A DNA stretch of 36,294 nucleotides from Bdellovibrionales bacterium (GTDB lineage Bacteria > Bdellovibrionota > FAC87 > UBA2466): contig SXPJ01000084.1 of assembly GCA_005776395.1 (NCBI GenBank), positions 1-36,294 of the forward strand. Direction: 5' to 3'. Below are positions 3,398 through 19,919 of this stretch, in pieces. A program made the position numbers and the translations under genes. The notes under the pieces were generated by a model that searched no databases, was not told the DNA's origin, and was given only the letters and a program-made list of their open reading frames with translations. Numbering within the stretch: the first letter of the stretch is position 1; each line of letters begins with the position of its first letter.

Positions 3398-3422
3398 TAT
3401 GCGCAGAGATAGTTTTTCTAGT

Positions 3423-3965
3423 CTAGTCCATCCAGGTTCTTACGCTGTTTTGTAAGGGGTGAAGAGCCCCCTTTTCTGTGTGTCTATCTAAGGTAATTAA
3501 CTTTCCCAGTTTTGTTTTTATAACTAAGCGCCAGTGGCCTCTTATATAATACTGGGGATCGGCATGATGGGCTGGGGCCACGTTAGCTGAAGGCCTTTGA
3601 TTCACTAATAAGACCTCTTCAATTTCCGATTTGTTTATTGTTTTGAAATTGAAATATTTATTGCCCAGAGAGTAACCTATAACTAAATCGGTATCCAAAA
3701 AGCGAATATATTTTCTGATCCAAAGAAGCTTGATACCTATCAAAACATAAATAGGAACTGAAGAGATAATACTTCCCACTAGCAATAAATCCAAATAATC
3801 TCCAGTGGTTAGTAATTGAAGCAATAATGAGTGGGCTGCAAGCCCCATACAGGTTAAGGCAAATCCAGCTAGTCCATAAAGGGTCCAAAAAACCTGAGGA
3901 GCCTTCTGTTCCTTAAATTCTTTTTCCACATTATCGGTCTTTTTAAGTTCGATATAAAAACCCAT
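3423..3965 (-). CDS. Small membrane protein of unknown function with two helices
   Basis: 180 aa, not recognised. Two hydrophobic helices lie at about residues 26-52 and 61-83, after a charged N-terminus (KKTDNVEKEFKEQK). The last about 95 residues are soluble and beta-rich, alternating hydrophobic and polar (RKYIRFLDTDLVIGYSLG, WRLVIKTKLGKLITLDRH). This resembles the general plan of membrane-anchored PH-like proteins, but that is only a resemblance in layout. It converges on the kinase (25-bp gap) and is divergent from the lptM-dap operon. Start ATG at 3963-3965, with a weak AAGG upstream. Confidence 0.7.
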   Translation of the reverse strand: MGFYIELKKTDNVEKEFKEQKAPQVFWTLYGLAGFALTCMGLAAHSLLLQLLTTGDYLDLLLVGSIISSVPIYVLIGIKLLWIRKYIRFLDTDLVIGYSLGNKYFNFKTINKSEIEEVLLVNQRPSANVAPAHHADPQYYIRGHWRLVIKTKLGKLITLDRHTEKGALHPLQNSVRTWMD

Positions 3966-3987
3966 GGGCCTTTCATGCTACCTTAGA

Positions 3988-4015
3988 TTGAAAAAATCAA
4001 GAAGATACCCAAAAT
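3988..4015 (+). promoter_or_regulatory. Candidate promoter of the lptM-dapFAB-dapL operon
   Basis: TTGAAA (3988-3993, 5 of 6 to the -35 consensus) is followed by a 16-bp spacer and CAAAAT (4010-4015, 4 of 6 to the -10 consensus). A strong ribosome site AGGAG at 4035-4039 then precedes the ATG at 4045 by 5 nt. The gap between the divergent genes (3966-4044) is only 79 bp, too short for a lysine riboswitch, and none is seen. Confidence 0.4.
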
Positions 4016-4044
4016 AGGCGCCATTTGCTAAGGTAGGAGCCCTA

Positions 4045-4269
4045 ATGAACCTTCGTATCCAGATAGCTAAATTCCTTGTACTGTTTACAGTGGTTATCTC
4101 TTTGGGGTGCGGAGTCAAAGGACCGCCTATTCCCTATGTAAGTATTGAGGGGGAGGATTTCAATGAAACCCGTAAAGTTCAAAAAGGGGTAGGGAGTGAA
4201 GCCCTACAGAACAAAGAGGCCAGCTCTAAATTGGATTCAATGAGAACGTTAGAAAAAGGGAAGAAATAA
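4045..4269 (+). CDS. lptM: LptM-like small lipoprotein encoded upstream of dapF
   Basis: 74 aa with a lipoprotein signal peptide: a short charged start, a hydrophobic core (FLVLFTVVISLG) and a lipobox LGC with the lipidated cysteine at residue 22. Directly after it comes CGVKGPPIPY, which matches the hallmark of the LptM/YifL family (E. coli has CGLKGPLYFP). The remaining about 45 residues are polar and probably disordered. In E. coli lptM sits immediately upstream of dapF, and the same order occurs here with a 3-bp gap to dapF. In E. coli LptM helps mature the LptD/LptE lipopolysaccharide translocon in the outer membrane. That role is carried over by similarity. The symbol rests on motif plus gene order. 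Confidence 0.78.
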   Translation: MNLRIQIAKFLVLFTVVISLGCGVKGPPIPYVSIEGEDFNETRKVQKGVGSEALQNKEASSKLDSMRTLEKGKK

Positions 4270-4272
4270 AGT

Positions 4273-5130
4273 ATGAGATTTCCGTTTCACAAGATGCATG
4301 GTTGTGGCAATGATTTTTTAATTTTGGATTATTTAGACGCTCGTGCTCCTGATTTTTTTCCCTCTGAAATAGTTTATCTTTGTGATCGTAATCATGGCCT
4401 TGGGGCTGATGGATTGGTCATTCTTCGTGATGCTAAAGAGGCCCATGCAGGATGGGATTTTTATAATTCTGACGGCTCTAGAGCTGAAATGTGCGGGAAT
4501 GCTGCTCGTTGCGTGATTCGTTATTTAGCTGAAAGACATTATCCGAGCGAGGTTCCCATTTCATTACAAACTGATGTGGGAATTATTAAGGGGAAAATGC
4601 TTGATATTCCCAACCATGTGGAAATCACTCTGAGCCCCAATTCCATACAACGAATCGAGTATGAACAAAAACTTGTAGTCGCAGGAGAAAACTCATTTGA
4701 TGTTTATTGTGTTAATACAGGGGTTCCTCATGCAGTGTTGGAAGTAAAAGATATTTCAACCTATCCAATTTTAGATGTGGGAAAGCGGTTATTAAAACAT
4801 CCGGCTTTTGGTGAGCAGGGAACCAATGTTACCTTTTTTCAGCGTCTTGTGGGTCAAAAGATTAAGACCACTACTTTTGAGCGAGGTGTCGAGCATGAAA
4901 CATTTGCATGTGGCACAGGGGTCGCAGCTGCGGCGATGATTTTTTCTGAACTCTACCTGCAACCTTTTCCCGTTGAAGTTGAAGCTCCAGGGGGAACATT
5001 ATTCGTTGATATAAGCCCTGTTTCAAAAATGATATTACTTCAAGGTCCGGCTGAATATGTTTATACGGTTGAGTTGGATTTAATTCCCCAAAATTTCATT
5101 AAGCCTTCTCTGTATAGCGATAGGAAGTGA
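4273..5130 (+). CDS. dapF: Diaminopimelate epimerase
   Basis: Cytoplasmic, cofactor-free racemase converting LL-diaminopimelate to meso-diaminopimelate, the direct precursor of lysine and of the cross-linking residue of peptidoglycan. 285 aa, normal for the family. Both catalytic cysteines are present: C74 in MCGNAARC and C213 in FACGTGVAAAA. The N-terminal signature FHKMHGCGNDF and the NHGLGADGLV segment also fit. It lies 3 bp after the lptM-like gene and 9 bp before dapA, so it is almost certainly cotranscribed with both. Confidence 0.97.
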   Translation: MRFPFHKMHGCGNDFLILDYLDARAPDFFPSEIVYLCDRNHGLGADGLVILRDAKEAHAGWDFYNSDGSRAEMCGNAARCVIRYLAERHYPSEVPISLQTDVGIIKGKMLDIPNHVEITLSPNSIQRIEYEQKLVVAGENSFDVYCVNTGVPHAVLEVKDISTYPILDVGKRLLKHPAFGEQGTNVTFFQRLVGQKIKTTTFERGVEHETFACGTGVAAAAMIFSELYLQPFPVEVEAPGGTLFVDISPVSKMILLQGPAEYVYTVELDLIPQNFIKPSLYSDRK

Positions 5131-5139
5131 GAGTTTTAA

Positions 5140-6027
5140 ATGAGTTTTAAAGGTGTTTTTATTGCTACAGTCACTCCATTTATCACGAAAACTGGAGGGG
5201 TTGATTTTAAATCTTATCAGTCTCACCTTAGGTGGCTTTCTGAATCTGGGGTTCAAGGGTTTGTTCCTTGTGGCACGACAGGGGAGGGACCGGTTTTATC
5301 AGAGGAAGAAAGAAGAGGTCTGATAGAGTTGAGCTCTGATGAGGCTAAACTTAAAGGATTGAAAGTGATTGCGGGATGTGGAAGTAACTCGACTTCATCA
5401 GCACTTAAAATGATTCTTGAGGCAAAAGAATCTGGAGCTGATGCGGCTTTGGTGGTTACTCCTTATTACAATAAACCTACACAAGAGGGGTTAATAGCTC
5501 ACTATGAATATTTAGCTGAACACAGTCCTCTTCCTATAATTCTCTATCATGTTCCAGGTAGAACGAACGTAACCTTTCAATTAGCAACTCTACAGAGACT
5601 TTTTCAGCACCCTAATATTATTGGAATTAAAGAGGCGAGTGGAAATCATGGATTTTGGATGGGAATGACTCAAGCGTTGGATTGGAAAATAAAAGATATT
5701 CTTGCGGGTGATGACGATGCTTTCGCCTTAATTCAACAGCTTGGGGGAAAAGGCATTATCTCTGCAAGTGCTAATGTGGCTCCCAAAGAGTTTGTTAAGT
5801 TATTTCAATTAACTGAGGCGGGCCGATGGTTAGAAGCCTTTGAACTACAGAAAAGATTATTACCTCTTATTCAAGCCATGTTTATAGAGACAAATCCATC
5901 TCCAGCAAAAGAGGCTCTGAAGCTTTTAAGTCGTATGGAAAATACGGTTCGATTACCTTTAGTTCCTGTATTGCCTAAAACGAGAGAAGTTATTTCACAA
6001 GCTTTAAAAGGATTGGGGCTTTTGTGA
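5140..6027 (+). CDS. dapA: 4-hydroxy-tetrahydrodipicolinate synthase
   Basis: Condenses pyruvate with aspartate 4-semialdehyde, the first committed step of the diaminopimelate pathway. 295 aa TIM barrel of normal length. The Schiff-base lysine is K164 in GIKEASG, the proton-relay tyrosine is Y136 in YHVPGRT with R141, and the GTTGE motif (45-49) carries the paired threonines. VTPYYNKP (106-113) is also typical. The related N-acetylneuraminate lyase group is less likely given the flanking dapF and dapB. The gene overlaps dapB by 4 bp (GTGA), showing translational coupling. Confidence 0.96.
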   Translation: MSFKGVFIATVTPFITKTGGVDFKSYQSHLRWLSESGVQGFVPCGTTGEGPVLSEEERRGLIELSSDEAKLKGLKVIAGCGSNSTSSALKMILEAKESGADAALVVTPYYNKPTQEGLIAHYEYLAEHSPLPIILYHVPGRTNVTFQLATLQRLFQHPNIIGIKEASGNHGFWMGMTQALDWKIKDILAGDDDAFALIQQLGGKGIISASANVAPKEFVKLFQLTEAGRWLEAFELQKRLLPLIQAMFIETNPSPAKEALKLLSRMENTVRLPLVPVLPKTREVISQALKGLGLL

Positions 6028-6743
6028 TCTGTAAAGTGGGTATTTGTGGGGCCTCTGGAAAAATGGGGCTGGAAATTGCTTCATTAATTCAGAAAGGATT
6101 TAAGTTTAAAGACGCTCAATTTGAGTTAGAGGATGCGGTTGCGGGTTCAAATAGTTTAAGGTTGATTGAAGGTGGGAATGTCAAAAGTATTAAAGATGAC
6201 TTGAGAGAATCGGTTCATGTTTGGATCGACTTTAGTCGCCCTGAGGGCACTCTTGAGTTATTAAAAAAAATTAGTACTCCTGTGGTCATAGGAACTACTG
6301 GATTCTCTGAAGAACAATGGAAAAGTGTCAGTCAATATGCTCTGAAGCATCCAGTTCTTTTTGCTCCTAATATGGCCCCTGGAATGAATACGCTAGTGAA
6401 AATGTTGGAAGAGAGTTCATTTTCCTCTTCGATAGGATTCGATGTTGTAGCCCAAGAGTCTCATCATAAACATAAAAAAGATTCTCCCAGCGGAACCATG
6501 AAGCGCTTATTAGTAACTTTAGAGACTTTGGGTTACCAGGATATTCCTGTTCAAGTTTCAAGAGTGGGTGAAGTGTTTGGAGTTCATACTTTGAAATTTA
6601 TTTCATCAGATGAAGAGATTACGATTGAGCATCGTGTCCTTAATCGCCGGGTATTTGCGAAAGGTGCTCTATTGGCGGCAAAGTTTATGAGTACACAAAA
6701 GAGAGCTAAACTTTATTCATTTGCAGAGGTGTTAGAGTCATGA
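6024..6743 (+). CDS. dapB: 4-hydroxy-tetrahydrodipicolinate reductase
   Basis: Reduces the DapA product to tetrahydrodipicolinate using NAD(P)H. The N-terminal Rossmann motif is GICGASGKMG (6-15), followed by VVIGTTGFS (87-95). The catalytic and substrate-binding block is SHHKHKKDSPSGTM (146-159), containing H147, H148 and K151. At 239 aa it is shorter than the E. coli enzyme (273), in line with short DapB forms. The start is GTG at 6024, overlapping the dapA stop as GTGA. The 3' end overlaps dapL in the same way (ATGA at 6740-6743). Confidence 0.95.
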   Translation: MICKVGICGASGKMGLEIASLIQKGFKFKDAQFELEDAVAGSNSLRLIEGGNVKSIKDDLRESVHVWIDFSRPEGTLELLKKISTPVVIGTTGFSEEQWKSVSQYALKHPVLFAPNMAPGMNTLVKMLEESSFSSSIGFDVVAQESHHKHKKDSPSGTMKRLLVTLETLGYQDIPVQVSRVGEVFGVHTLKFISSDEEITIEHRVLNRRVFAKGALLAAKFMSTQKRAKLYSFAEVLES

Positions 6744-7918
6744 AATGGATTGAACAGGCAAGACGACTTCAGGAGCTTCCACCCTATATTTTTAGTGAGA
6801 TAAACGCTATCAAAGCGGATGCCCAAAAGCGTGGAATTTCACTTTTAAGTCTCGCTATTGGGGATCCCGATCAACCGACTCCTGAAGCCATTGTAAGAAA
6901 GCTTCAAGAAGCAATGGCAAATCCGGAGAACCATGTCTATTCGCCTTACGAAGGAACGATGGCATTTAAACTCGCTGTAGCAGACTGGGTTAAGGAGAGA
7001 TTTAATGTGACTGTGAATCCAGAAACTGAAGTGATGGCCTTGATTGGTTCCAAAGAGGGCATTGCCCATTTTCCTTTGGCTTTTGTGAACCCTGGGGACA
7101 AATGTCTTTATCCCTCACCTGGATATCCCATTTTTCAAACGGCAATTAGTTTGGCAGGGGGAATTCCCATTCCAGTTCCACATCGAGTCGAGAATGGTTT
7201 TATTCCTGATCTTCATGAGCTGGAATCTCTACTAGTTCTTCATAAGCCCAAATATCTTTTAATTAACTTTCCATGCAATCCTACATCTGCAGTGGTTAAT
7301 AGAGAGTTTTTGACAGAACTTGTATTTTTAGTTCGCAAATATCAAACGATCCTTGTTTCTGACAATGCTTATAGTGAAATGTACTATGCGGAAGAGGATA
7401 AACCTTTAAGTATTCTAGAAATTCCGGGTGCGATGGATGTTGCCATTGAGTTCCAATCTTTCTCCAAAACATTTAACATGACAGGATGGCGTATTGCTTA
7501 TGCCATAGGTAATGCGAAGCTCGTGGCTGGATTGTTACGGGCTAAAACCAATATTGATTCCGGTCCATTGCTCGCAGTTCAAGAAGCTAGTATCTATGCT
7601 TTGAAAAATGGCAAAGTTCTCTGTGAGCCGATTCGCGATATTTATCGAAAACGCAGAAAGATTATTCTAGAGGGATTAGACAAGCTTGGGATTAAGTATC
7701 TCTATCCGAAAGCTACCTTTTTTATATGGGCTGAAGTTCCAGGTAGCGAATCTTCAATGGAGTTTACTAAACGACTCATTGAAAAAGAGGGACTTGTGGT
7801 CACTCCTGGTATTGGATTTGGAAAAGAGGGGGATAAGTATTTTCGACTAGCCCTTACGGTTCCCGATGATTCTCTAGAGAGTGCTATTGAAAGACTAGGT
7901 AGGGCTATTCATAAGTGA
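6740..7918 (+). CDS. dapL: Class I/II aminotransferase, probable LL-diaminopimelate aminotransferase
   Basis: PLP aminotransferase, 392 aa. The PLP lysine is K243 in QSFSKTFNMTGWR, with N180-P181 (FPCNPTSA), D208 and Y211 for cofactor binding and R251 following. SLAIGDPDQPTP near residue 38 is the usual N-terminal motif. Sequence alone would allow an aspartate or alanine aminotransferase. Its position as the last gene of dapF-dapA-dapB, with an ATGA overlap, makes DapL by far the best reading: it would convert tetrahydrodipicolinate straight to LL-diaminopimelate using glutamate, bypassing DapD, DapC and DapE. No dapD or dapE gene is in this window, which agrees but proves little. It converges on acs. 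Confidence 0.85.
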   Translation: MKWIEQARRLQELPPYIFSEINAIKADAQKRGISLLSLAIGDPDQPTPEAIVRKLQEAMANPENHVYSPYEGTMAFKLAVADWVKERFNVTVNPETEVMALIGSKEGIAHFPLAFVNPGDKCLYPSPGYPIFQTAISLAGGIPIPVPHRVENGFIPDLHELESLLVLHKPKYLLINFPCNPTSAVVNREFLTELVFLVRKYQTILVSDNAYSEMYYAEEDKPLSILEIPGAMDVAIEFQSFSKTFNMTGWRIAYAIGNAKLVAGLLRAKTNIDSGPLLAVQEASIYALKNGKVLCEPIRDIYRKRRKIILEGLDKLGIKYLYPKATFFIWAEVPGSESSMEFTKRLIEKEGLVVTPGIGFGKEGDKYFRLALTVPDDSLESAIERLGRAIHK

Positions 7919-7993
7919 CAGAACTCACAATAAAATAATATTCAATCGTTACTTATCAACTAATTACTAAAACTCACTATAGAGTGCCAGATA

Positions 7994-9946
7994 TTAAGAT
8001 TCAATAATTTCAATAAGCCCTGGATTCTCAAGAGTTGTTGTATCACCAGAGATCTCTTTTCCTGACGCCAGATCCTTTAGCAACCTTCTCATGATCTTTC
8101 CGCTTCTAGTTTTTGGAAGAGTCTTAGTGAATTTAATTTCATCGGGTCTTGCAAGGGCTCCAATTTCATTAACGACATGAGCCTTTAGTTCTTGGACTAG
8201 AATTTTAATATCCAGTTTTTCACCAGAATCTCTCGGAGTCACAAAGGCCACAATGCTTTGTCCTTTGAGCTCATCTGGACGACCTACGACAGCGGCTTCA
8301 GCAACTCTTGGATGGCTCACAAGAGCACTTTCAATCTCCATAGTTCCAAGTCTGTGACCCGAAACATTGATCACATCATCGACTCTGCCTTTAATCCAAA
8401 AGTACCCCTGTTCATCTCTATGGGCCCCATCTCCAGTAAAGTAGAGTCCTTTGAATCTAGACCAGTACCCCTCTTTATATCTTTCCGGATTTTTATGAAG
8501 GGTTCTTAACATGGAAGGCCAGGGATGACGGATGACGAGATATCCCCCTTCATTTGGAGCGCATGTTTTTCCCTCTTCGTTAACAATATCGGCCACAATG
8601 CCTGGAAAGGGTCTCGTGGCTGATCCAGGTTTTAGAGGAGTTACACCAGGAATAGGAGAGATCAAAATAGATCCAGTTTCCGTTTGCCACCAAGTATCAA
8701 CAATAGGACATTTTCCTTTTCCGACGATTTGGTGGTACCACATCCAAGCCTCTGGATTGATAGGCTCTCCTACACTTCCTAATAGGCGTAGACTTTTTAG
8801 AGAATGTTTTATGACGTACTCATCTCCTGCGCGCATGAAAGCTCGGATTGCGGTTGGAGCTGTATAAAGAATAGTTACTTTGTGTTTATCAATGATCTCC
8901 CAAATACGTCCAGCCTGAGGATGCATCGGAGCTCCTTCATAAATTAAACTGGTAGCTCCATTGGCAAGAAGTCCGTAGACGACATAACTGTGACCCGTGA
9001 TCCAACCTATATCTGCGGTACACCAGTAGATATCTTGATCCTTAAGATCGAAAATCCATTTAGCAGTTGTAGCAACGCCTAATAGATAGCCTCCAGAGGA
9101 ATGAACAATACCCTTAGGCTTTCCGGTGGTTCCACTAGTGTAAAGGTAGAATAGGGGGTGCTCTGAATCGAAGGGCTGGGCTTTGTGGGTTCTGGATTGG
9201 TCTGCTACAAAAGTGTTCCAGTCGATTTCATTCTTAGAGAGTTGTGTTGTAGGATCTCGTCTCAAAATCAAAGTGGTTTGGACTGAAGGGCATTCAGCAA
9301 CAGCTTCTCGAACGATCTTTTTTAAATCTAAAGTTTGTCCCCGACGATAACCCAAGTCAGCCGTAAAAATAATTTTACAGTCAGCATCTAAAACTCTGTC
9401 TTTTAGAGAGAGGGAGCTGAACCCTGCAAATACAATACTATGAGCTACGCCAATTCGCGCACATGCAAGCATAGCAATAATGGCTTCAGGCACTAGGGGC
9501 ATATAGATCGCAGCTGTATCACCAGGTTTGAGCCCCAATTTATTCTCTAGTGCATTAGCGAGTTGGGAAACCTCTTCATAGAGCTGTTGAAAGGTAAGTG
9601 TTCTGACTGAACCATCTTCCCCCTCCCAAATATAGGCTAACTTATCTTTCTGAGTGGGAAGGTGCCGGTCTAGGCAATTGTAAGCGACATTGATCTTTCC
9701 CCCCAGAAACCATCTAGAGAAGGGTTCTTTCCACTCATGAGTGGTGTGCCATTTTTCAAACCAGTGAAGTGATTCGGCCTCTTTCTGCCAGAATTTTTCA
9801 GGGTTTTTTTGAGATTCTTCCCATAGCTCTTGATAGGATTTGGAATCTTTTATGAGAGCCTGCGAAGTAAATTCAGTAGGGGGAGAGAAAACTCTAGTTT
9901 CCTTCATTACGGTTTCGATTGAACTTTTACTGGTTTTATTGTCCAT
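7994..9946 (-). CDS. acs: Acetyl-CoA synthetase (AMP-forming)
   Basis: Activates acetate to acetyl-CoA through acetyl-AMP. 650 aa, the normal length. The ANL-superfamily P-loop reads YTSGTTGKPKG; other matches are the WWQTETGS motif, the YFTGDGAHRDEQGYFWIKGR hinge region, and VSGHRLGTMEIESALVSH. The C-terminal KTRSGKIMRRLL holds K617, the position that is reversibly acetylated in Acs enzymes, so this control may operate here. I start it at ATG 9944-9946 because AAGGTGG lies 5 nt upstream; a GTG at 9955 in the same frame would sit inside that ribosome site. It is divergent from the receiver/kinase gene (76-bp gap). Confidence 0.95.
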   Translation of the reverse strand: MDNKTSKSSIETVMKETRVFSPPTEFTSQALIKDSKSYQELWEESQKNPEKFWQKEAESLHWFEKWHTTHEWKEPFSRWFLGGKINVAYNCLDRHLPTQKDKLAYIWEGEDGSVRTLTFQQLYEEVSQLANALENKLGLKPGDTAAIYMPLVPEAIIAMLACARIGVAHSIVFAGFSSLSLKDRVLDADCKIIFTADLGYRRGQTLDLKKIVREAVAECPSVQTTLILRRDPTTQLSKNEIDWNTFVADQSRTHKAQPFDSEHPLFYLYTSGTTGKPKGIVHSSGGYLLGVATTAKWIFDLKDQDIYWCTADIGWITGHSYVVYGLLANGATSLIYEGAPMHPQAGRIWEIIDKHKVTILYTAPTAIRAFMRAGDEYVIKHSLKSLRLLGSVGEPINPEAWMWYHQIVGKGKCPIVDTWWQTETGSILISPIPGVTPLKPGSATRPFPGIVADIVNEEGKTCAPNEGGYLVIRHPWPSMLRTLHKNPERYKEGYWSRFKGLYFTGDGAHRDEQGYFWIKGRVDDVINVSGHRLGTMEIESALVSHPRVAEAAVVGRPDELKGQSIVAFVTPRDSGEKLDIKILVQELKAHVVNEIGALARPDEIKFTKTLPKTRSGKIMRRLLKDLASGKEISGDTTTLENPGLIEIIES

Positions 9947-11118: not shown

Positions 11119-12507
11119 TTAGAAATCAAAATAGATAAATTCTGCCGAGTTTCCAGAGCTCATTATGAAGCTTACTCCTATTAAAAATAGGGCAATGGCA
11201 TAGATGACAAATTTCGGAAGTCTCATGCTCCAAAGTCTGTAGATTGAATGTTTGTCAATTCGATGTGTTAATACAAAACAGATAAAGATTGCGACCCCAT
11301 AAAAATAATCGGTAGGAAAGAGATTGAAACTCCAAGATTTCATTAGTAGCCCTTTTAATAGTTCGAGCGCAACAATGACTTTGGGAGCTCGAAATAGAAC
11401 CCATCCCACGGCTACGAAGTGCAGGGTTAGAGTCCAGCAAATAACTTTTGGAATTTTAAATTTGGGTAGAAATCGATGCATTGAATGGTTGCAAACGATT
11501 CCAAATGAATGAAAAAGTCCCCAAAGCACAAAGGTCCAGCTTGCACCATGCCATAATCCTCCTAATGCCATAGTGAGAGTGATATTTCTCATTTGGTTAA
11601 GCCAACCCCAACGATTACCTCCAAGGGGAATGTAAAGGTAATCTCGTAACCAAGTTGAAAGTGTTATGTGCCAACGTTTCCAGAATTCAACTATCGATGT
11701 TGAAATATAGGGGCTATTGAAATTACCAGGCAATCTAATTCCCAGCACCCATGAGAGTCCTAAAGCCATATCAGTATAGCCACTAAAGTCACAATAGATT
11801 TGTAGAGTGAAGCCATAAAAAGCCATCAGATGTGGCCAAACAGATAAACTGTTCGATAGACTTGAGTAGGCTTGATTGACATGCGTTGCGATTGAATCTG
11901 CAAAGACCAATTTTTTGAAAAGTCCAATAGAAAAGAGAAGTAACCCAAATTTAATCTTTGCACTTATTTGTGGGTTCCAATGTTTTAGTTGGGGCATGAG
12001 CTGAATAGGCCTAACGATAGGCCCAGCAATTAGGTGTGGAAAAAAAAATACAGCAGATAGCAGGTAAGAGAAATTATTTTCCGCTTTGAATTTTCCTCTA
12101 TAAACGTCGATGAGATAAGCTGCTGAGGTAAAAGTAATAAAAGAAATTCCTAATGGAAGTGGAAGATTGGGAGTGCTGATATTTATACTTGGGGTGACTA
12201 GTTTTATATTCTGAACTAAAAATCCAAGATATTTAAAAAGTATAAGTGGGAAAAATAAAAGTGAAACAAACACAAGTAAATGCTTTTTCTTGGAAGGAGC
12301 ATTCTCTGATCCGCTAATTTGAAGCCCTGCCCAGTAGGTGAAAATAACGAATACAAATGGCAGTGGAATAAACAGTGGATTCCAGTATCCGTAAAACACG
12401 GCACTGCCCAATACGACCAGTCCCATCATGAAATGACGTGGAAGAAATTGATGAAATAGGAAGTAACTTGAGAAAAAAAGAAAAAATATGGGGTCACTAA
12501 AAAGCAT
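11119..12507 (-). CDS. MBOAT-family O-acyltransferase (AlgI-like)
   Basis: 462-aa polytopic inner-membrane protein of the membrane-bound O-acyltransferase family. AlgI and PatA relatives move acetyl groups across the membrane for O-acetylation of alginate, peptidoglycan or other glycans. Diagnostic parts are FFPHLIAGPIVRP (155-167), YCDFSGYTDMALGLS (238-252), the conserved H280 in EFWKRWHITLSTWLRDYLY, and the catalytic-type H320 in GGLWHGASW. About 10-12 hydrophobic segments are visible. Its start overlaps the end of the upstream SGNH gene by 11 bp, so the two are translationally coupled. This matches known MBOAT plus SGNH-esterase pairs. The substrate cannot be read from sequence. Confidence 0.9.
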   Translation of the reverse strand: MLFSDPIFFLFFSSYFLFHQFLPRHFMMGLVVLGSAVFYGYWNPLFIPLPFVFVIFTYWAGLQISGSENAPSKKKHLLVFVSLLFFPLILFKYLGFLVQNIKLVTPSINISTPNLPLPLGISFITFTSAAYLIDVYRGKFKAENNFSYLLSAVFFFPHLIAGPIVRPIQLMPQLKHWNPQISAKIKFGLLLFSIGLFKKLVFADSIATHVNQAYSSLSNSLSVWPHLMAFYGFTLQIYCDFSGYTDMALGLSWVLGIRLPGNFNSPYISTSIVEFWKRWHITLSTWLRDYLYIPLGGNRWGWLNQMRNITLTMALGGLWHGASWTFVLWGLFHSFGIVCNHSMHRFLPKFKIPKVICWTLTLHFVAVGWVLFRAPKVIVALELLKGLLMKSWSFNLFPTDYFYGVAIFICFVLTHRIDKHSIYRLWSMRLPKFVIYAIALFLIGVSFIMSSGNSAEFIYFDF

Positions 12508-13522
12508 TGGGCTTTAAAGTTTTTTGAGAAGAAATAGATTTATTAAAAATTTCTTTTTCAAGTATTGGAACTATGGTCTCAGCCATTTTGCGATGACCAT
12601 ATCCATTGGGATGTGGATCTCCTGGCATTGACCAAACCTCCTCAGGTTTAAGACCTTTTAGAGAAGGATAAAGATCAACAAACTCATAACCCAGATCCCT
12701 GGAAATAATTTCCATTTGTTTGTGGATAAATGTAAATGGATAATTTATCAGGTTGTGCACATCAGGAGTTACAGCAAGATATAATCGGATATTATGATCC
12801 TTAGCATAGTGTCTTAGGCGTGTGAGTGCAGTAATCATTCTTTGGTGTCCGGGATGTGTTGGAGAATAAAGTTCCTTGTAACGTGACTCGACTGTAACAC
12901 CTCCTTTGGCCATAGCAGACTGTTGGTATAGATTCCATAGTGTTACAGCGAGCTGACTGTTTTTTAAGAGCCAATTTCCTCGGCCGGAGTCTAAAATTTC
13001 GGCATCTCTCAAAAAAAAGTGAACAACAATATCTGTAGGATTAATTTGTTTAAGTTTTGTTAGGAATAACTGAACATAGCGTTCACTATTGTAATTGCCA
13101 ATTCCCCCATTAAGTACAACCGCATCAAAGCCATTCTTTTTAAGTAACTTTTCAGTTTGAACTGCAATGGTTTCTTCTTCGGCTACTCCCCAGCCTAGAG
13201 TAATTGAACTACCCAAAAAAAGAATAGTTGGATTTTTAGAGTTGGCCGGAATTTGTGCTCCCCGCATTCCCAACTCATTAGTTCGTATGTTTACTGATTG
13301 GAGAACGGCAGATGACAAGTTTTTATGCTCATGACCAAGGATTAGGTCGGAGCTTGGAACTTTTAACTCCTTTGCGTACCGCCACATCTCTATATCGTAA
13401 TTTTTCATCGATATATTTTTTAGTCGTAAAGCACCTTCAAGAACTAAAAGGCTGAGGGGAATAGTTAGGAGAGAAACTAAGACGGAAAAAAGAACTGTTT
13501 TTGTTTGGTTTCTGTTTTTCAT
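12497..13522 (-). CDS. SGNH/GDSL hydrolase-like protein, membrane anchored, paired with the MBOAT gene
   Basis: 341 aa with an N-terminal signal anchor (about 9-30) and a periplasmic SGNH fold. Block I is FLGSSITLGWG with nucleophile S106; NGGIGN (138-143) gives the oxyanion glycine and asparagine; the catalytic pair is D302 and H304 in GDPHPNGYGH. All four hallmark residues are present, so it should be active. With the MBOAT gene it probably forms the periplasmic half of an O-acyl transfer system, in the manner of AlgJ/AlgX or PatB; esterase action is the alternative. The name is from motifs and gene pairing, not from recognition of a specific orthologue. Confidence 0.85.
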   Translation of the reverse strand: MKNRNQTKTVLFSVLVSLLTIPLSLLVLEGALRLKNISMKNYDIEMWRYAKELKVPSSDLILGHEHKNLSSAVLQSVNIRTNELGMRGAQIPANSKNPTILFLGSSITLGWGVAEEETIAVQTEKLLKKNGFDAVVLNGGIGNYNSERYVQLFLTKLKQINPTDIVVHFFLRDAEILDSGRGNWLLKNSQLAVTLWNLYQQSAMAKGGVTVESRYKELYSPTHPGHQRMITALTRLRHYAKDHNIRLYLAVTPDVHNLINYPFTFIHKQMEIISRDLGYEFVDLYPSLKGLKPEEVWSMPGDPHPNGYGHRKMAETIVPILEKEIFNKSISSQKTLKPNAF

Positions 13523-13608: not shown

Positions 13609-14682
13609 ATGAAAAAGTCGCGTGAGAAATTTTTTGCGAGCATTCTTTTTATTTTGGCAATAGGCTTCACAATTGGCCTCTCTGAAATAACTCTTCGAAT
13701 CAAACATAAGAAATTGAAACTTATCAATTACGTTGAAGAAAATTGGAACCTGGTTAGTTGGGAATTTCCGATTCAACATGATTCTAATTTAGGTTGGATA
13801 CCGAAAGTAAATAGTCAGGTTAAATCGGCTGATTCCAAGACCATTATGAATCTTATTGATTGGGGCATTAGATCGAATGGCGGAGTTTTTCCAGGTTCAA
13901 CTTCTAAAGACTCAATTTTAGCCGTTGGAGCGTCTCATGTTTTTGGATCTCAGGTTTCTGACTCTGATACTTGGCCAGCCATTCTTGAGAAAGAAAGTAA
14001 ATTTCGAGTCATTAATGGAGGAGTATTCGCCTATGGATTTGATCAGGTTATCCTTCGGATGGAGGATCTAGTTTCCAAGATTCACCCCGAAAGGATCATT
14101 ATTGGGGTTCATCCCGATAATCTGTCTCAGACAGTGATGAGTCAGAAGTACGCTAAAAAGCCCTATTTCGACATTTCGAATAACGAATTGGTTTTGAAAA
14201 ATACGCCTGTACCGATTACTAAGAAGGGGTTAAATCCCTATCAAGCCGTTATGGGTTATAGTTATTTAGTACATTATTTAATGACTCGTTTATCCCCGCA
14301 AGTGTGGCTTGAAAATCATGGTGAGATAAAAGCACATAACAAATCTCATGAGGTGAGCTGTCTTTTAATAAAAAGGGCAGACTATTTTTGCAGGAGCCAT
14401 AATATAAAATGTTCATTATTGTTTCAGTACTTTCATACGACTGCTCCCGAGGCTAGAGAGCAGGTAATTAAGCTCACTCCATGTATTAAAAATACCGAAA
14501 TTAATCTTTGGGATCCCTATGAGGCTCTTGAAGAATTTAAAAAAAATGACCTCAAAAGACACGAGACACTTTTTGATTTTCATATGACACCCCAAGGAAA
14601 TGCTTGGATGGCAAATTACGTTTTACAAAAGATCAATCATAAAAACAGATTGAGTAGTTTCGAATTAGTGCAGGGTGACTAA
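13609..14682 (+). CDS. Second SGNH-like hydrolase with an N-terminal membrane anchor
   Basis: 357 aa. A signal anchor at about 8-27 is followed by a periplasmic SGNH-like domain: block I AVGASHVFGSQ with S109 as nucleophile, block II INGGVFAYGFDQ (135-146), and D323-x-H325 in LFDFHMTPQGNAWMA. The block II glycine is present; I could not place the block III asparagine with confidence. It is only distantly similar to the SGNH protein at 12497-13522 and is divergently transcribed from it. The 3' end overlaps the convergent gene at 14665 by 18 bp. A role in acyl addition to, or removal from, an envelope glycan is inferred from the flanking genes. Confidence 0.78.
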   Translation: MKKSREKFFASILFILAIGFTIGLSEITLRIKHKKLKLINYVEENWNLVSWEFPIQHDSNLGWIPKVNSQVKSADSKTIMNLIDWGIRSNGGVFPGSTSKDSILAVGASHVFGSQVSDSDTWPAILEKESKFRVINGGVFAYGFDQVILRMEDLVSKIHPERIIIGVHPDNLSQTVMSQKYAKKPYFDISNNELVLKNTPVPITKKGLNPYQAVMGYSYLVHYLMTRLSPQVWLENHGEIKAHNKSHEVSCLLIKRADYFCRSHNIKCSLLFQYFHTTAPEAREQVIKLTPCIKNTEINLWDPYEALEEFKKNDLKRHETLFDFHMTPQGNAWMANYVLQKINHKNRLSSFELVQGD

Positions 14683-17391
14683 ATCGACCCATACAGCATG
14701 AGCTGCTGTAATGTCGTTTTTTAGGGTTTTGACAGATAGAATAAGTTCTCTCTCATTTCCATAGGCTATTCTAAAGTTTTGTTCTCGATTTTGGTTGTTA
14801 AGGGGAGAACTGGCAAATAAGATCTCTTTCGGGGTTCTAATTTGGCATTGAATATTTGCTCCATTGGCATAGTCCGGGTAACCGCATTTCCCTGACAAGA
14901 TTCCAGGGCTCTTTTTTAAACGAATTTTGATTTCAGAGTTGGCGTGAGTCCCTAGACCCGCGTGGTAGATGGTTCCTTTAACAATGATTGGGTTTTTATT
15001 CAGATCTTCATTTTTATGTAGAGTTCCCCAGTCCTGATGTGAGTTTATAATTTCAAAGTCTCTAAAATTGAGTTGCCTCCAATTCCAGAATAGAAATGAA
15101 TCGGTTTTTTGGCTTATAATAATGTAGCTACACGAAAAAAGGGCTAGAAGCCCCCAGAACCAGAATTTGCCTGCAAAATATTTTTTGTTTTCTGAATCAG
15201 TTTTTGCTTTAGCTGTTTTGATTTTGGGCACTGAATAAGATTGAGTATTATTTATACTGCTTGCGTCAGAAAGCACTTTGTTTTTAGTGGTTTTTCTTTG
15301 GGTGAAAATAATTATTACAATTAAAATAGTAGAAAAAATAGAAATCCATCTAAATAGAGCCCACTGCCAGGAGCTTCCAAAACTTAGTTTTACTGTTTCA
15401 GCTTGAGGAACAATTCCTAAAAATCCTGGGCTCACCAAAAATAGAGGCTCTCCGCCAGAGGAGGTGAAAGAGGGATGATAGGCATATTTTAAATAGTGCG
15501 CATAACCGGGGCAGTCTGTTTTTAAGTAAATCCCTGAGAAATCTACCGTAGTGGTGGGATGGCATTCACGACCGGGTATCCAGTTAGGGCTAGAGGGTAA
15601 ACTGGTTTCACTTTCTGCAGCAACAAGAAATACCTTCCCTCGTTCGTACTCTTTGAACCATCGCCAAGCTCTCTCTTTCCAATCATCTAATGAGACTGTA
15701 ATTGGAGGAGAACTAAATGTTTCGGCCATGGGAATGGATTTAACGGTTTCAAAAATAGTCCATGGGCCCGCAGCCATTCGCTTTCTTAAAAAAGGGGCCT
15801 CGGCAGCTGTTTTAAGAGAAATATCGGAGCTTAATATTAACTCTTTGATGCCCAGTAGCTCCATTCGTTCTTCGGCCTGTTTCAATCCAAATTTCATGCA
15901 AGGCCAATTATGAAAAGGGCAACTAGCGTTTTGGCTTATTTCAGAGGTGAAGCTATAAATCATGGGCGCAAGAATAGTTGATTGCAGGTACAAGCTTTCG
16001 GTTGTGGCTCGATTGGCAAAATAGGGCAACATCTCAAAGACTCGTTCGGTGCCTACAGAGTTGTTTTTGACATGATGTTCATAAGCCACTCTTGGTTCTG
16101 ATAAGTTTCCGTGGAGAGACTCAGATAATTTTACTAATTCTTGATATTTGGGCTTGGTTTTCCACCCTGAATAGTTCCAATTCATCCAGATAGGAAACTT
16201 TACAACGTGATAACCCTCCCATGGAAAAAGTAATCCAATGATTAGAATTATTACGGAGAGTTCTAGTTTCTTAGAAAGAGAGCTTAAAGCAGTTGCAACG
16301 AGAATTCCTGTAGTGATAGCCCAAAAGAGCTGAGTCTGAGGAATGGCTCTCACATCAACGAGTTTTAGCCACCGGAATACAAAAAAGAAACAAAGATAAA
16401 TAACTCCTGCCCCGAACCAAAACCAAGTGGCTCGAATAAGTAATTTATTTTTTGTTTTTAAACCCTGATAGGCAATTGCGAGAATCGATATTAGAGATAA
16501 AACTATGATTGGATCAAAGATTCGAGGAAGAACCTCTTGAGTCCAGTCCTGAAACACCCAAGAAAAAGAGTGGGGAGTGACCCAGAAGTTACTCAAAATC
16601 ATAGGGCCTAGAAACCAAATGGATAAAAGCGCTGAGATTAATCCGCTTAAACAACTTAACTTAAAGCGATGAATGAATGAGTCCATTGGATGTACAAGTG
16701 CTATAAGAAGGATGAGGAGTGGGATCCCAAAGTAAATATAACCATGAGAAAGTGCTACCGCAGAAAATAGAATGCCTGACTTCCATGGTAGTTCTCGTTT
16801 GTTGAGCTCGCGCCAAAAAACCCCTAAACCTAAAATTAAAAAGTTTAAAGCATACATGTGAGCAAATTGCCCGGCGAGTGTTGAGAGAGTATTCCCCCCC
16901 CACATGGAATAACCTTCATTTAATACGACCGCACTTGAGAAGATAGAGGCTAGGATAGGTGCAGGAAAGGGCAATGCCATAACCCGTAAACCTGCCCACA
17001 CAGAAATGGGTAGACTGACGACTGGAAGAATTGTTCCAAGATTGAAAGCAAGTCCCACAGGTATTAGATAGCTGAATAAGCCCATCAAAATAAAAGGCAG
17101 TGGAAAATAGTGAACAAGGAGACCTTCACCGCCGTTATTGCCGGGGTTCCAAGGACGTGCAACAAGATTTGGAATTCCGAAATCATGCAATACTTTTACA
17201 GGCCAGAAGTGCGAACCTGTGTCTCCACCTGTTGCCGGAAGATTGTTAAGCACGATAGCAGGAAGAAATTGGGCAATAACATAAAAGGCTGTGAAAACTG
17301 AAAAGATCTCACTTAAAAATGTTAATCTTTTAAGTGTTAGATTGGAAATTATTCTGCCGAATAAATTAATTATATTGTTTTTGTTTTGCAT
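14665..17391 (-). CDS. Large polytopic GT-C/PTPS-related-type membrane protein with a C-terminal NPCBM-like domain
   Basis: 908 aa. The N-terminal two fifths have about 10-12 hydrophobic helices. The first outside loop carries GGDTGSHFWPVKVL (near residue 55) and WNPGNNGGEGLLVHYFPLPF, the layout of GT-C-fold glycosyltransferases and of the 'PTPS-related' membrane family. A large periplasmic region follows (about 400-660), then two more helices, and a C-terminal beta domain (about 775-908) with GTIYHAGLGTHANSEIKIRL and HAVWVDLVTL, the pattern of the NPCBM carbohydrate-binding module. A glycosyltransferase using a lipid-linked donor is likely but unproven. It starts 4 bp after the GT2 gene, which probably supplies that donor. 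Confidence 0.8.
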   Translation of the reverse strand: MQNKNNIINLFGRIISNLTLKRLTFLSEIFSVFTAFYVIAQFLPAIVLNNLPATGGDTGSHFWPVKVLHDFGIPNLVARPWNPGNNGGEGLLVHYFPLPFILMGLFSYLIPVGLAFNLGTILPVVSLPISVWAGLRVMALPFPAPILASIFSSAVVLNEGYSMWGGNTLSTLAGQFAHMYALNFLILGLGVFWRELNKRELPWKSGILFSAVALSHGYIYFGIPLLILLIALVHPMDSFIHRFKLSCLSGLISALLSIWFLGPMILSNFWVTPHSFSWVFQDWTQEVLPRIFDPIIVLSLISILAIAYQGLKTKNKLLIRATWFWFGAGVIYLCFFFVFRWLKLVDVRAIPQTQLFWAITTGILVATALSSLSKKLELSVIILIIGLLFPWEGYHVVKFPIWMNWNYSGWKTKPKYQELVKLSESLHGNLSEPRVAYEHHVKNNSVGTERVFEMLPYFANRATTESLYLQSTILAPMIYSFTSEISQNASCPFHNWPCMKFGLKQAEERMELLGIKELILSSDISLKTAAEAPFLRKRMAAGPWTIFETVKSIPMAETFSSPPITVSLDDWKERAWRWFKEYERGKVFLVAAESETSLPSSPNWIPGRECHPTTTVDFSGIYLKTDCPGYAHYLKYAYHPSFTSSGGEPLFLVSPGFLGIVPQAETVKLSFGSSWQWALFRWISIFSTILIVIIIFTQRKTTKNKVLSDASSINNTQSYSVPKIKTAKAKTDSENKKYFAGKFWFWGLLALFSCSYIIISQKTDSFLFWNWRQLNFRDFEIINSHQDWGTLHKNEDLNKNPIIVKGTIYHAGLGTHANSEIKIRLKKSPGILSGKCGYPDYANGANIQCQIRTPKEILFASSPLNNQNREQNFRIAYGNERELILSVKTLKNDITAAHAVWVDLVTLH

Positions 17392-17395
17392 GGTT

Positions 17396-18355
17396 CTAAC
17401 TAGCTTTTTTCAATTCTTGATCTGATCTCGATTCAGGAAAGGTGTTTCGAATAACGTATTGGGGACGTCCTTTTGATTGCATGAATAATTTCCCCAAATA
17501 AATTCCCATGACTCCGAGAATGAGTAGTTGTACTCCACCGATCAATAATACACTTGCAATCAGTGAGGCCCAACCTGAAACGCTTTCATTAGTAAAGAGT
17601 TTGATTCCTAAAGTGTAAATTAAATAAAGAAAAGAGGTGGTGGCGAAAAAAGCCCCCAAATATAAGGCTAGATATAGAGGTTTGATGCTAAAGCTTGTGA
17701 TACCGGCTACAGAAAGCCTTATCATTTTTATAAGCGTATATTTGCTTTCTCCATGCTTTCTTTGGGACTGTTGGTACCCAATAGTTTTAGTTTTGAATCC
17801 TAGCCATGGGATAATTCCTCGCCAAAATAGTTCATTTTCGGTAATCGCTTTACAGACCTCAACCACTTTTTTATCAAGTAGTCTGAAATCTGCTGTTCCC
17901 GGTTCAACGGATGTTTCTGAAATTAGGTTTAAAAGAGTGTAAAAGATTCGAGAGGATATTTTTTTGAAGATTGGAAGTCTAGAGTTATTCTCTCTTTTGC
18001 AAATGACAACTTCAATTCCGTTTCTCCAGAGAGAGAGCATTTCCAATAAAATTTCAGGGGGATGTTCTAAATCGCAATCGAGAGATAGAGCACAATCTCC
18101 TCGAGCATAATCTAGTCCGGCTTTTAGGGCTGCTTGGTGACCAAAATTTCTGGAAAAAGAAATTCCTTTAACTTGGGGATAATTTTGAGAGAGTTTTTGT
18201 ATTTCGGCTGCAGTTTTATCGGTGCTGCCATCATCAATAAAAATAATTTCATAATCTTCTTTGAAAAGCAGGGTAGAGATCTTTTCAAATAAGAGACTAA
18301 TATTGGCTTCTTCATTGAATGCCGGAATGATAATAGAAATGGTGGGTTGCAACAT
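17396..18355 (-). CDS. Polyprenyl-phosphate-type GT2 glycosyltransferase (GtrB/ArnC/DPM1-like)
   Basis: 319 aa. The GT-A domain has SIIIPAFNEEANI at the start, the IDDGSTDKT loop (40-48), FSRNFGHQAALKAGLDYARG and the DxD motif at D93-D95 in LDCDLEHPP. Two helices near the C-terminus (about 226-253 and 263-292) are typical of enzymes that transfer a sugar from a nucleotide donor to undecaprenyl phosphate on the cytoplasmic side. The product would be flipped and used by a GT-C enzyme, which fits the large membrane protein 4 bp downstream. The sugar cannot be predicted. A related gene lies at 27860. Confidence 0.9.
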   Translation of the reverse strand: MLQPTISIIIPAFNEEANISLLFEKISTLLFKEDYEIIFIDDGSTDKTAAEIQKLSQNYPQVKGISFSRNFGHQAALKAGLDYARGDCALSLDCDLEHPPEILLEMLSLWRNGIEVVICKRENNSRLPIFKKISSRIFYTLLNLISETSVEPGTADFRLLDKKVVEVCKAITENELFWRGIIPWLGFKTKTIGYQQSQRKHGESKYTLIKMIRLSVAGITSFSIKPLYLALYLGAFFATTSFLYLIYTLGIKLFTNESVSGWASLIASVLLIGGVQLLILGVMGIYLGKLFMQSKGRPQYVIRNTFPESRSDQELKKAS

Positions 18356-18444: not shown

Positions 18445-19620
18445 TTACGAGTGGAGAATGTTAATTTGTGAAAAAGCCTCATAGATTGATTCCGCAAATT
18501 GATCGGGACGATAGGCCTCTAAAACTTTCTTTCTGGCTCGTTCTCCTAACTCTTGTTGAAGAGTTCTGTTTTCTAATAGCTGGTTCACATATTTTAAGGC
18601 CGATTCTATTGATCCCACTTCATAAATGAAACCAGTTTGTCCATTATCCACTAAATCGCCTGCCGCTCCACAGGCACTGCTAACTAAAGCGGGTAATCCG
18701 CAACTAAATGCCTCATTGACGACCAGACCCCAAGTTTCAAATTCAGAAGGCACGACCAGAAGATCTGAAGCAAAATACCAGTCACGAGTTTCTGTTTGAT
18801 TTTGAAATCCTAACCAATGAAGTCTTGGCATCTCTTCGCAATAAGACTTTAATGAACTCTCCAAAGGTCCTGAACCTATGATGAGTGTATGAACTCGTCC
18901 GTTTTGAAGGAGCAGTTCATGAAGAGCGATTAGATCTTGAGGCCGCTTTCTTTCAAATAACCTCCCCACGAATAAGAGTACAAAATCTGTTTCCTTGATG
19001 TTGAGTTTTTGCCTGAGTTTAGTTCTTTTTAGCGAAGCAAAAGGCTCTTCTTTCTTAAAAAAATCGGTATCAATGCAGTAACGACCAGAAACAATTTTTG
19101 AGGGGGAAATTTTTTTGGATAGGTAGAAGGCTTCAGTTTTTTTACCAATAGATACGAAACGTTTGACTCCACGCAAGAAAAAAGTTTGAAGAGGAGTCGT
19201 TGCAAATCTTCGCAACCAAGAACTGTTTGAGGTGAAGGTCTCGCCTACAAAAATTAAAGGGATGTTCATTTGAGAACAGAGAAGTCTCAAAATCCAATGT
19301 TCTTTTAAGTAATAACCATAAACTAAAATAGCATTAGGTTGTTCGGTGATAAGAAGAGTTTTCAAACTCTTATAAATCTGAAGAATTTTTAATGTATCGG
19401 TGTTTAGGGTTTTATGAGAGTAACCTTCAGTAAGATTTATTCCCCAATCTAAAGATTTGGCTTTTCCCACCTCGTGAAACCACCATTTTCCGCCGTCAAA
19501 GTCAGAGTTGAAAAAGTAGACCCTAAGAGAAGAAAGTTTTTTTGCCAGCTCCCTAAAAACCGGGGCACGATATTGGATTGGATGGGTATCAAATATTAGT
19601 AGTTTGGGCTGATTTTCCAT
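18445..19620 (-). CDS. GT4-family (GT-B fold) glycosyltransferase
   Basis: 391 aa from the ATG at 19618-19620. The N-terminal half opens with KLLIFDTHPIQYRAPVFREL, a pattern common in GT4 enzymes. The C-terminal donor-binding half has LLFVGRLFERKRPQDLI, WLGFQNQTE, and an EX7E motif in SEFETWGLVVNEAFSCGLP. It likely transfers a hexose from a nucleotide sugar to a cell-surface glycan precursor in the cytoplasm. The frame stays open to an ATG at 19692, but that would overlap the divergent gene and adds residues unlike GT4 starts, so I reject it. It precedes the GT2 gene by 89 bp on the same strand. Confidence 0.9.
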   Translation of the reverse strand: MENQPKLLIFDTHPIQYRAPVFRELAKKLSSLRVYFFNSDFDGGKWWFHEVGKAKSLDWGINLTEGYSHKTLNTDTLKILQIYKSLKTLLITEQPNAILVYGYYLKEHWILRLLCSQMNIPLIFVGETFTSNSSWLRRFATTPLQTFFLRGVKRFVSIGKKTEAFYLSKKISPSKIVSGRYCIDTDFFKKEEPFASLKRTKLRQKLNIKETDFVLLFVGRLFERKRPQDLIALHELLLQNGRVHTLIIGSGPLESSLKSYCEEMPRLHWLGFQNQTETRDWYFASDLLVVPSEFETWGLVVNEAFSCGLPALVSSACGAAGDLVDNGQTGFIYEVGSIESALKYVNQLLENRTLQQELGERARKKVLEAYRPDQFAESIYEAFSQINILHS

Positions 19621-19682
19621 GGCGGCAACTTCTATTTTACCTCGTTCTCGACAAACTGCCAGCCGCTTTGTACACTCCTCGT

Positions 19683-19919
19683 ATGAATTCAATTCAAACG
19701 GCCAATATTGTGCTGATTTTTATAGGTCTAGTTCTTTTGGCTTCAGGGCCTTATATTTTGTATCGAACTATTTTCGGATTGATACAGTCTCGTCGGGAGG
19801 ATCCTACGGCTAACCTTCATTTTTTTAGTAATTTTTTGAATATTGTTATTGCGGTATTGTTTTTTATGGCAGGGGGATTGTTTATTATTAACAATCTTCG
19901 CGGAAACCCTCTTGGATAA
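19683..19919 (+). CDS. Small protein with two membrane helices, unknown function
   Basis: 78 aa from ATG 19683. Two hydrophobic helices, about 8-31 (IVLIFIGLVLLASGPYILY) and 50-70 (VIAVLFFMAGGLFII), are joined by a charged loop with QSRREDP. Not recognised. The frame is open further upstream to 19578, but the extra residues are unlike a signal or helix and would overlap the divergent GT4 gene, so the internal ATG is preferred even though no clear ribosome site precedes it. The 190-bp gap after it (19920-20109) holds no gene that I can see. Confidence 0.6.
   Translation: MNSIQTANIVLIFIGLVLLASGPYILYRTIFGLIQSRREDPTANLHFFSNFLNIVIAVLFFMAGGLFIINNLRGNPLG

Follow-up and report, generated by a model that had tools for sequence, protein, structure and literature searches.

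A PTPS_related-type membrane protein with a C-terminal NPCBM domain in a genus of Bdellovibrionales

A polytopic membrane protein that carries a C-terminal NPCBM domain is encoded in a 36,294-nt stretch of DNA (the window; positions 1-36,294 of contig SXPJ01000084.1, Bdellovibrionales bacterium, GCA_005776395.1). Its open reading frame (ORF; 14665-17391, minus strand) runs through 908 codons without an internal stop, and its parts and neighbours are listed in Table 1. We found that the fusion is real and conserved, and that a detached form of the NPCBM exists in a sister genus. The protein is probably a GT-C-type periplasmic glycosyltransferase of the PTPS_related (PF10131) lineage, in which the NPCBM would hold the acceptor glycan in the manner of the EmbC and ORF12 enzymes discussed below.

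The original prediction, made from the sequence alone, had placed an NPCBM-like module at about residues 775-908 of this protein. Our Pfam search agreed: residues 777-903 matched NPCBM (PF08305) with E 1.1e-15 and 58.3 bits, above the curated cut-off of 23.9, over profile positions 6-133 of 137. Among PDB sequences searched with phmmer, alpha-1,3-galactosidase B (8pvs) matched this part with E 2.4e-7, and the carbohydrate-binding module (CBM) family 51 entries 2vmg/2vmh matched weakly (E 0.33-0.37). An AlphaFold2 model of residues 741-908, built from a single sequence, contained 10 strands (mean predicted local distance difference test, pLDDT, 61; predicted template modelling score, pTM, 0.58), and the last helix was expected in its first 35 residues, which instead formed a low-confidence coil. 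Foldseek returned 18 matches to this model at E <= 0.001, the best being a CBM4 entry (1.3e-4). The CBM51 entries 2vmi, 7js4, 2vmg and 8pvs were matched at 1.4e-4 to 4.1e-4 with template modelling (TM) scores of about 0.5 (for 2vmi, E 1.4e-4, TM 0.50/0.57 and root-mean-square deviation 8.4), and a few matches were to non-CBM proteins. The jelly-roll fold and NPCBM similarity that had been anticipated were therefore both found, the fold on a weak model. By profile, sequence and this weak fold model, the C-terminal domain is a true NPCBM, and the model, of modest quality, supports a beta-sandwich like that of solved CBM51 domains.

Fused and separate forms of the NPCBM protein

The whole protein was searched against the window's own genome and those of 58 relatives, and nine of these 59 genomes matched. 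The fusion was present in all six genomes of the window's genus, five times intact and once (G001) as only the C-terminal part at the start of a contig, and searches within the phylum found it in this genus only. A scan of close-relative contigs with the fusion protein returned one relative, L003, seemingly the same contig as in G003, and the whole protein had no match in the plasmid collection. Across 368 genomes of the phylum, eight had an NPCBM domain at E <= 0.001, namely all six members of the genus, one genome of a sister genus in the same family (G009), and G043. The eight copies in the window's family comprise six fused to the PTPS_related protein, one beside it (G009), and one beside a DUF2079 gene. 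The five copies of G043 are spread over four proteins of other kinds, most of which look secreted; three of them lie at or close to contig ends. At one G043 locus (L034:6245-6964, minus), an NPCBM fragment with a C-terminal hydrophobic stretch lies at a contig end, and the opposite strand holds an 8-helix protein of 514 aa.

In G009, a 262-aa single-pass NPCBM protein and a 758-aa membrane protein are encoded by separate, adjoining genes, which overlap by 8 bp with the longest ORF taken as the gene; the first 40-50 residues of the membrane protein align poorly, and its true start may be further in. The split genes are ordered NPCBM, then membrane protein, whereas the NPCBM comes last in the fusion. 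Because the two orders are opposite, the fusion did not arise by simple loss of a stop codon. In a tree of 21 NPCBM rows (eight of the nine plasmid domains described below were used, and L037 was left out), the fused and G009 domains formed one branch (100/97), inside which the six fused domains formed a branch of their own (99/96). Since they share one branch, the fused and split domains are taken as orthologous. Residues 1-90 of the split protein (L016:9404-10192) are soluble, have no Pfam match and are missing from the fused form.

The only other NPCBM in the window's genome (G000:C6:7009-7671; L015, minus) belongs to a 220-aa single-pass protein. Its gene lies 1 bp (from the longest-ORF start) from the gene of a DUF2079 membrane protein (5079-7007, minus; PF09852, E 1.4e-64); a gene combining glycosyltransferase family 2 (GT2) and methyltransferase is found upstream, and another polytopic protein is encoded downstream (3352-4743). 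DUF2079 is putatively GT-C-like; a search of the open-access literature found nothing on this family. Profile comparison of a 20-member alignment of the membrane part with nine DUF2079 proteins gave a score of 33 (P 0.0066, probability 5.7%), and six polytopic control sets scored 12.6-25.8. In G117, PTPS_related, GT2 and DUF2079 genes stand in a run. The C6 NPCBM protein matched 28 records of the plasmid collection, nine of which were viewed. Eight of these hold an annotated NPCBM protein, none strongly polytopic (0-3 hydrophobic stretches; two were cut at the region end), and the ninth, from Nonomuraea, has no annotation at the match site.

At about one such gene per genome, adjacency of the NPCBM by chance in both G009 and the window's genome would be very unlikely. 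What is unusual here is that a detachable NPCBM protein accompanies members of two distinct membrane-protein families. We tentatively suggest that single-pass NPCBM proteins might be interchangeable acceptor-recognition subunits that plug into PTPS_related and DUF2079 GT-C families, as accessory subunits do in oligosaccharyltransferase; the window protein would then be one such pair fused, with its pieces in the order opposite to that of the split genes.

The residues of the NPCBM bear on whether it is a lectin at all. Two acidic positions that most other rows retain have changed in all seven PTPS-linked domains, where Pro replaces the first Asp of the GVDD-type motif and Val replaces the ADW-type Asp; the six fused domains have also lost the Asp before His. 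The seven also share a cysteine pair that the other 14 rows lack at those positions. Such changes would be expected if the NPCBM were a structural or docking domain that lends stability to the transferase or contacts a partner protein. We consider this unlikely, however, since the GLGTHAN-type motif and the second Asp of the GVDD-type motif are retained in the PTPS-linked domains, the Asp preceding His survives in the split domain of G009, and the existence of a stand-alone form there demonstrates that the domain can be a protein of its own. Selection argues in the same direction. In the closest pair, G002/G005, nonsynonymous (dN) and synonymous (dS) divergence of the NPCBM were 0.071 and 0.358, and dN/dS was about 0.11 in the core, 0.14 in the periplasmic domain, 0.59 in the linker and 0.20 in the NPCBM. 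Thus, the NPCBM is under purifying selection in this pair, the sole unsaturated one, the other nine being saturated.

Lineage, topology and partner gene of the membrane part

The window protein resembles PTPS_related proteins in that 7 of its 20 aligned family members match PF10131 (best E 1e-26), and differs from them in that it falls below detection itself and in its NPCBM. No other family was matched at E <= 0.01 among the same 20 members. The G009 and G039 homologues match PF10131 with E 8.5e-19 and 7.7e-14, and the window protein is 38% identical to each (E 8e-153 and 5e-161, respectively). The lineage of the membrane part is settled by these matches of its homologues: judged by homology, the core descends from the PF10131 lineage and is GT-C-like by descent. 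According to the parts of PMC7801869 consulted, PF10131 is listed in the GT-C clan CL0111, human TMTC proteins match it by HHpred, and TMTC, STT3 and Glyco_transf_22 proteins carry an active-site DD motif in the first outer loop. In the family alignment, G55, G56, D57, S60 and H61 are kept in at least 90% of the 20 rows, in the predicted loop after helix 1, and the D57/H61 loop is a candidate catalytic or donor site.

The 14 helices of the original prediction were not reproduced. Mean hydropathy of the five full-length fused proteins at a threshold of 1.1 gave 13 helices, 11 of them in residues 25-397 and the others at 678-696 and 742-760, and the window protein alone, at a threshold of 1.5, gave 10. 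The charge signal near helix 6 is unclean, and the count may shift. Over the same five proteins, the N-terminal tail (mean 4.8 K/R, 0.8 D/E) and the linker at 697-741 (11.0 K/R, 1.4 D/E) look cytoplasmic, which places the domain at 398-677 and the NPCBM in the periplasm. We therefore predict a protein of about 13 helices with its NPCBM on the periplasmic side, as had first been proposed. The near-invariant cysteines of the 398-677 domain and the cysteine pair of the NPCBM fit this location. From its position, helix 742-760 appears to be the counterpart of the one helix found in stand-alone NPCBM proteins.

The gene of the membrane protein is coupled to a GT2 gene. In all five loci of the genus with visible upstream sequence, the GT2 gene precedes the fusion gene by 0-4 bp. 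Of the 21 genomes viewed, 13 (the window's, L003 and 11 of 19 others) have a homologue of this GT2 gene near that of the membrane protein, some on the opposite strand; the G001 locus ends at a contig edge. The window's GT2 protein matched the PgfS model with E 2.9e-78 (263 of 500 bits required) and the ArnC model with 1.4e-40 (139 of 529 bits required). Because both of these named synthase models were matched below cut-off, its role as a polyprenyl-phosphate-sugar synthase is a prediction only.

The membrane part might instead be a flippase or a polymerase, or a GT-C-like subunit without activity, similar to PIG-U. Inactive members of the GT-C clan exist, PIG-U among them (PMC7801869, in the parts consulted), and the genome yielded no GtrA flippase. 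Nevertheless, the first-loop Asp/His signature is kept over 20 aligned, diverse homologues, as expected of an active site, and the GT2 partner gene adjoins. We regard a non-transferase function as distinctly improbable.

Proposed acceptor-anchored transfer

The steps that we infer for a GT-C-type transferase with an acceptor-binding NPCBM would be as follows. The GT2 enzyme would load a sugar onto polyprenyl phosphate in the cytoplasm, and the lipid-linked sugar would then be flipped across the membrane. In the periplasm, the GT-C core would transfer the sugar, using D57, to a surface glycan or glycoprotein, and the NPCBM, held on the periplasmic side by its own helix, would bind the acceptor glycan and keep it near the active site. 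The occurrence of a fused form, and of separate neighbouring genes in a relative, suggests that the NPCBM helps to choose the sugar acceptor.

Several known systems provide analogies. According to the available parts of PMC3044687, the C-terminal domain of EmbC binds acceptor analogues, and Trp substitutions in this domain lower acceptor binding and the extension of lipoarabinomannan (LAM). The mycobacterial proteins EmbA/B/C and AftD thus resemble the window protein in joining a GT-C core to an extracytoplasmic carbohydrate-binding module (PMC3044687; EmbA/B and AftD as cited in PMC11127046), although, judged by these descriptions only, they belong to another GT-C family and carry a module of another family. 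The three-component system of Citrobacter youngae ORF12 likewise comprises a polyprenyl-phosphate-sugar synthase and a GT-C transferase with a C-terminal CBM, but that CBM is immunoglobulin-like rather than an NPCBM, and a flippase, ORF14, is assigned there (parts of PMC11127046), whereas the window's genome yielded no GtrA-type candidate. In VanZ/Skillet-3 lipocone proteins, too, a helix connects an NPCBM-like module to a membrane-associated domain, but this domain is a lipocone and not GT-C (PMC12419801, in part). The CBM51/NPCBM domains of 8pvs, 2vmg and 7js4 belong to the same domain family by profile, and by fold on the weak model, yet they are found on glycosidases or a peptidase, while the window's NPCBM sits on a polytopic membrane protein and has changed acidic positions and an added cysteine pair. 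In the open-access literature consulted, part of it seen incompletely and subscription papers not covered, we found no description of an NPCBM on a GT-C enzyme. The fusion would work on the same lines as established GT-C enzymes that carry binding modules, but it is built from another transferase lineage and another module, and it has a detached sister form. The original prediction had envisaged processive or acceptor-anchored transfer. Anchoring is plausible by analogy to EmbC and ORF12 and from the split and fused gene pair; processivity found no support.

A number of results weigh against acceptor-anchored transfer by a GT-C enzyme. Residues 1-776 of the window protein matched no Pfam or NCBIfam model at limits of E 1 and 0.1. 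The profile of the 20-member membrane alignment found no relevant PDB chain, its one match (E 0.59) being irrelevant, and a full-length AlphaFold2 run with two sequences (P0001 and L003) was unusable at pLDDT 35.7. Because of these two outcomes, GT-C membership rests on descent rather than structure; the GT-C-like character first proposed for the membrane part holds in the former sense, and the GT-C fold was not seen. The NPCBM label does not fix the ligand, because two to three of the usual acidic positions are changed. The flipping step lacks a candidate gene, because no PF04138 (GtrA-type) match at E <= 0.01 was found in the genome, which is 98% complete; 8 of 14 control genomes were positive. 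Searched against the 368 genomes, the profile of the membrane part had matches in 22, and those in G261, G323, G366 and G367 were weak (G261 was left out of the locus views). In the 15 of these genomes that lie outside the family, a scan at E <= 0.001 found no NPCBM, so the domain is not needed for core function. The CBM of ORF12 itself, which binds O-polysaccharide, was not required for catalysis under the conditions of the test (PMC11127046, in the parts consulted). As for the partner gene, 2 of the 13 GT2 neighbours (G244 and G367) are distant matches. Of 208 ORFs in 20 compared loci, 13 matched the window's GT2, 11 of these beside the membrane gene, but this is a weak control because the loci were centred on that gene.

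There is only a slim chance that the NPCBM is instead a checkpoint reader that recognises finished or terminally modified polymer and controls its release or export, the role played by the CBM in Wzt ABC (ATP-binding cassette) transporters (PMC11127046, in part). Nearby GT4, GDSL and MBOAT genes in the window and L003 make polymer modification plausible, but a Pfam search of 30 window proteins, which did not extend to the remaining genome, found no ABC exporter or chain-terminating enzyme.

Neighbouring genes, related loci and significance

Table 1. Features of the fusion gene and its neighbours (window coordinates)
Feature	Coordinates	Strand	Evidence
Whole gene, PTPS_related-type (GT-C-like) membrane protein with NPCBM, 908 aa	14665..17391	minus	ORF, profiles, homologues
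GT-C-like core, predicted helices 1-11, residues 1-400	16192..17391	minus	hydropathy of five homologues; 7/20 aligned members match PF10131
PATGGDTGSHFWP, residues 52-64, first predicted outer loop, candidate catalytic/donor site	17200..17238	minus	20-row alignment; putative catalytic role
Predicted 280-residue periplasmic domain, residues 398-677, near-invariant C491, C498, C610, C627	15361..16200	minus	alignment, hydropathy
Basic, predicted cytoplasmic linker, residues 697-741, least conserved part	15169..15303	minus	hydropathy, dN/dS
Last predicted helix, residues 742-760	15112..15168	minus	hydropathy
NPCBM (PF08305) domain, residues 777-903, predicted periplasmic	14683..15063	minus	profile, sequence, model, tree
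GT2 gene resembling GtrB/ArnC/PgfS, predicted polyprenyl-phosphate-sugar synthase, 4 bp upstream	17396..18355	minus	PF00535 E 6.9e-31
GT4 glycosyltransferase gene	18445..19692	minus	homologue upstream in L003 (68%), fragment in L020
GDSL/SGNH-type esterase-like gene	12497..13522	minus	31.2 of 32.9 bits (below Pfam cut-off); homologue in L003 only
MBOAT (DltB-like) O-acyltransferase gene	11119..12507	minus	PF03062 E 9.6e-27; homologue in L003 only

Between 11119 and 14682, two GDSL-like genes and the MBOAT gene stand beside the fusion, an arrangement that resembles an O-acylation set and is kept in L003. These genes possibly serve O-acylation of the polymer. No GDSL or MBOAT homologues were seen in the stretches viewed of G001, G002, G004 and G005. 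In G005, a GalE-type epimerase gene (L020:1276-2259, minus; TIGR01179, 433 bits against a cut-off of 262) lies between the GT4 fragment and the GT2/fusion pair. It was seen there alone among the genus stretches viewed, without a genome-wide search, and hints at a hexose donor. Elsewhere in the window, housekeeping functions predominate (for example, lysine/diaminopimelate synthesis, acetyl-CoA synthetase and BipA), one Wzy_C-type gene above cut-off was found elsewhere in the genome, and promoter and terminator scans performed no better than shuffles.

Other proteins accompany membrane homologues that have no NPCBM. In G039, the gene after that of the membrane protein encodes a protein of 289 aa, which is hydrophobic at both ends and matches no Pfam family. 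A relative of this protein is encoded near a distant membrane homologue in G255 (E 1.5e-6), and the G255 protein has a relative in G182. Related proteins with a C-terminal hydrophobic stretch are encoded at L017:11518-12387, L079:9163-10005 and L080:8847-9521 (all plus strand), near PTPS_related-like genes without NPCBM, those of L079 and L080 having weak Ig-like Pfam matches below cut-off. It is possible that these three are an alternative accessory subunit. In G118, G120 and G119 (L073, L075 and L076), diverged PTPS_related-like genes occur as tandem pairs near a GT2 gene. The G244 membrane homologue is split over two overlapping frames (L074:6019-6477 and 6431-8260, plus), the gene or the assembly being broken.

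The functions of the membrane families PF10131 and DUF2079 are not known, and a lectin-type module, fused or detached, gives a soluble handle on them. The isolated NPCBM could serve to find the envelope glycan targeted by these transferases. The fusion would also extend the list of GT-C enzymes that have binding modules beyond the mycobacterial and Citrobacter cases.

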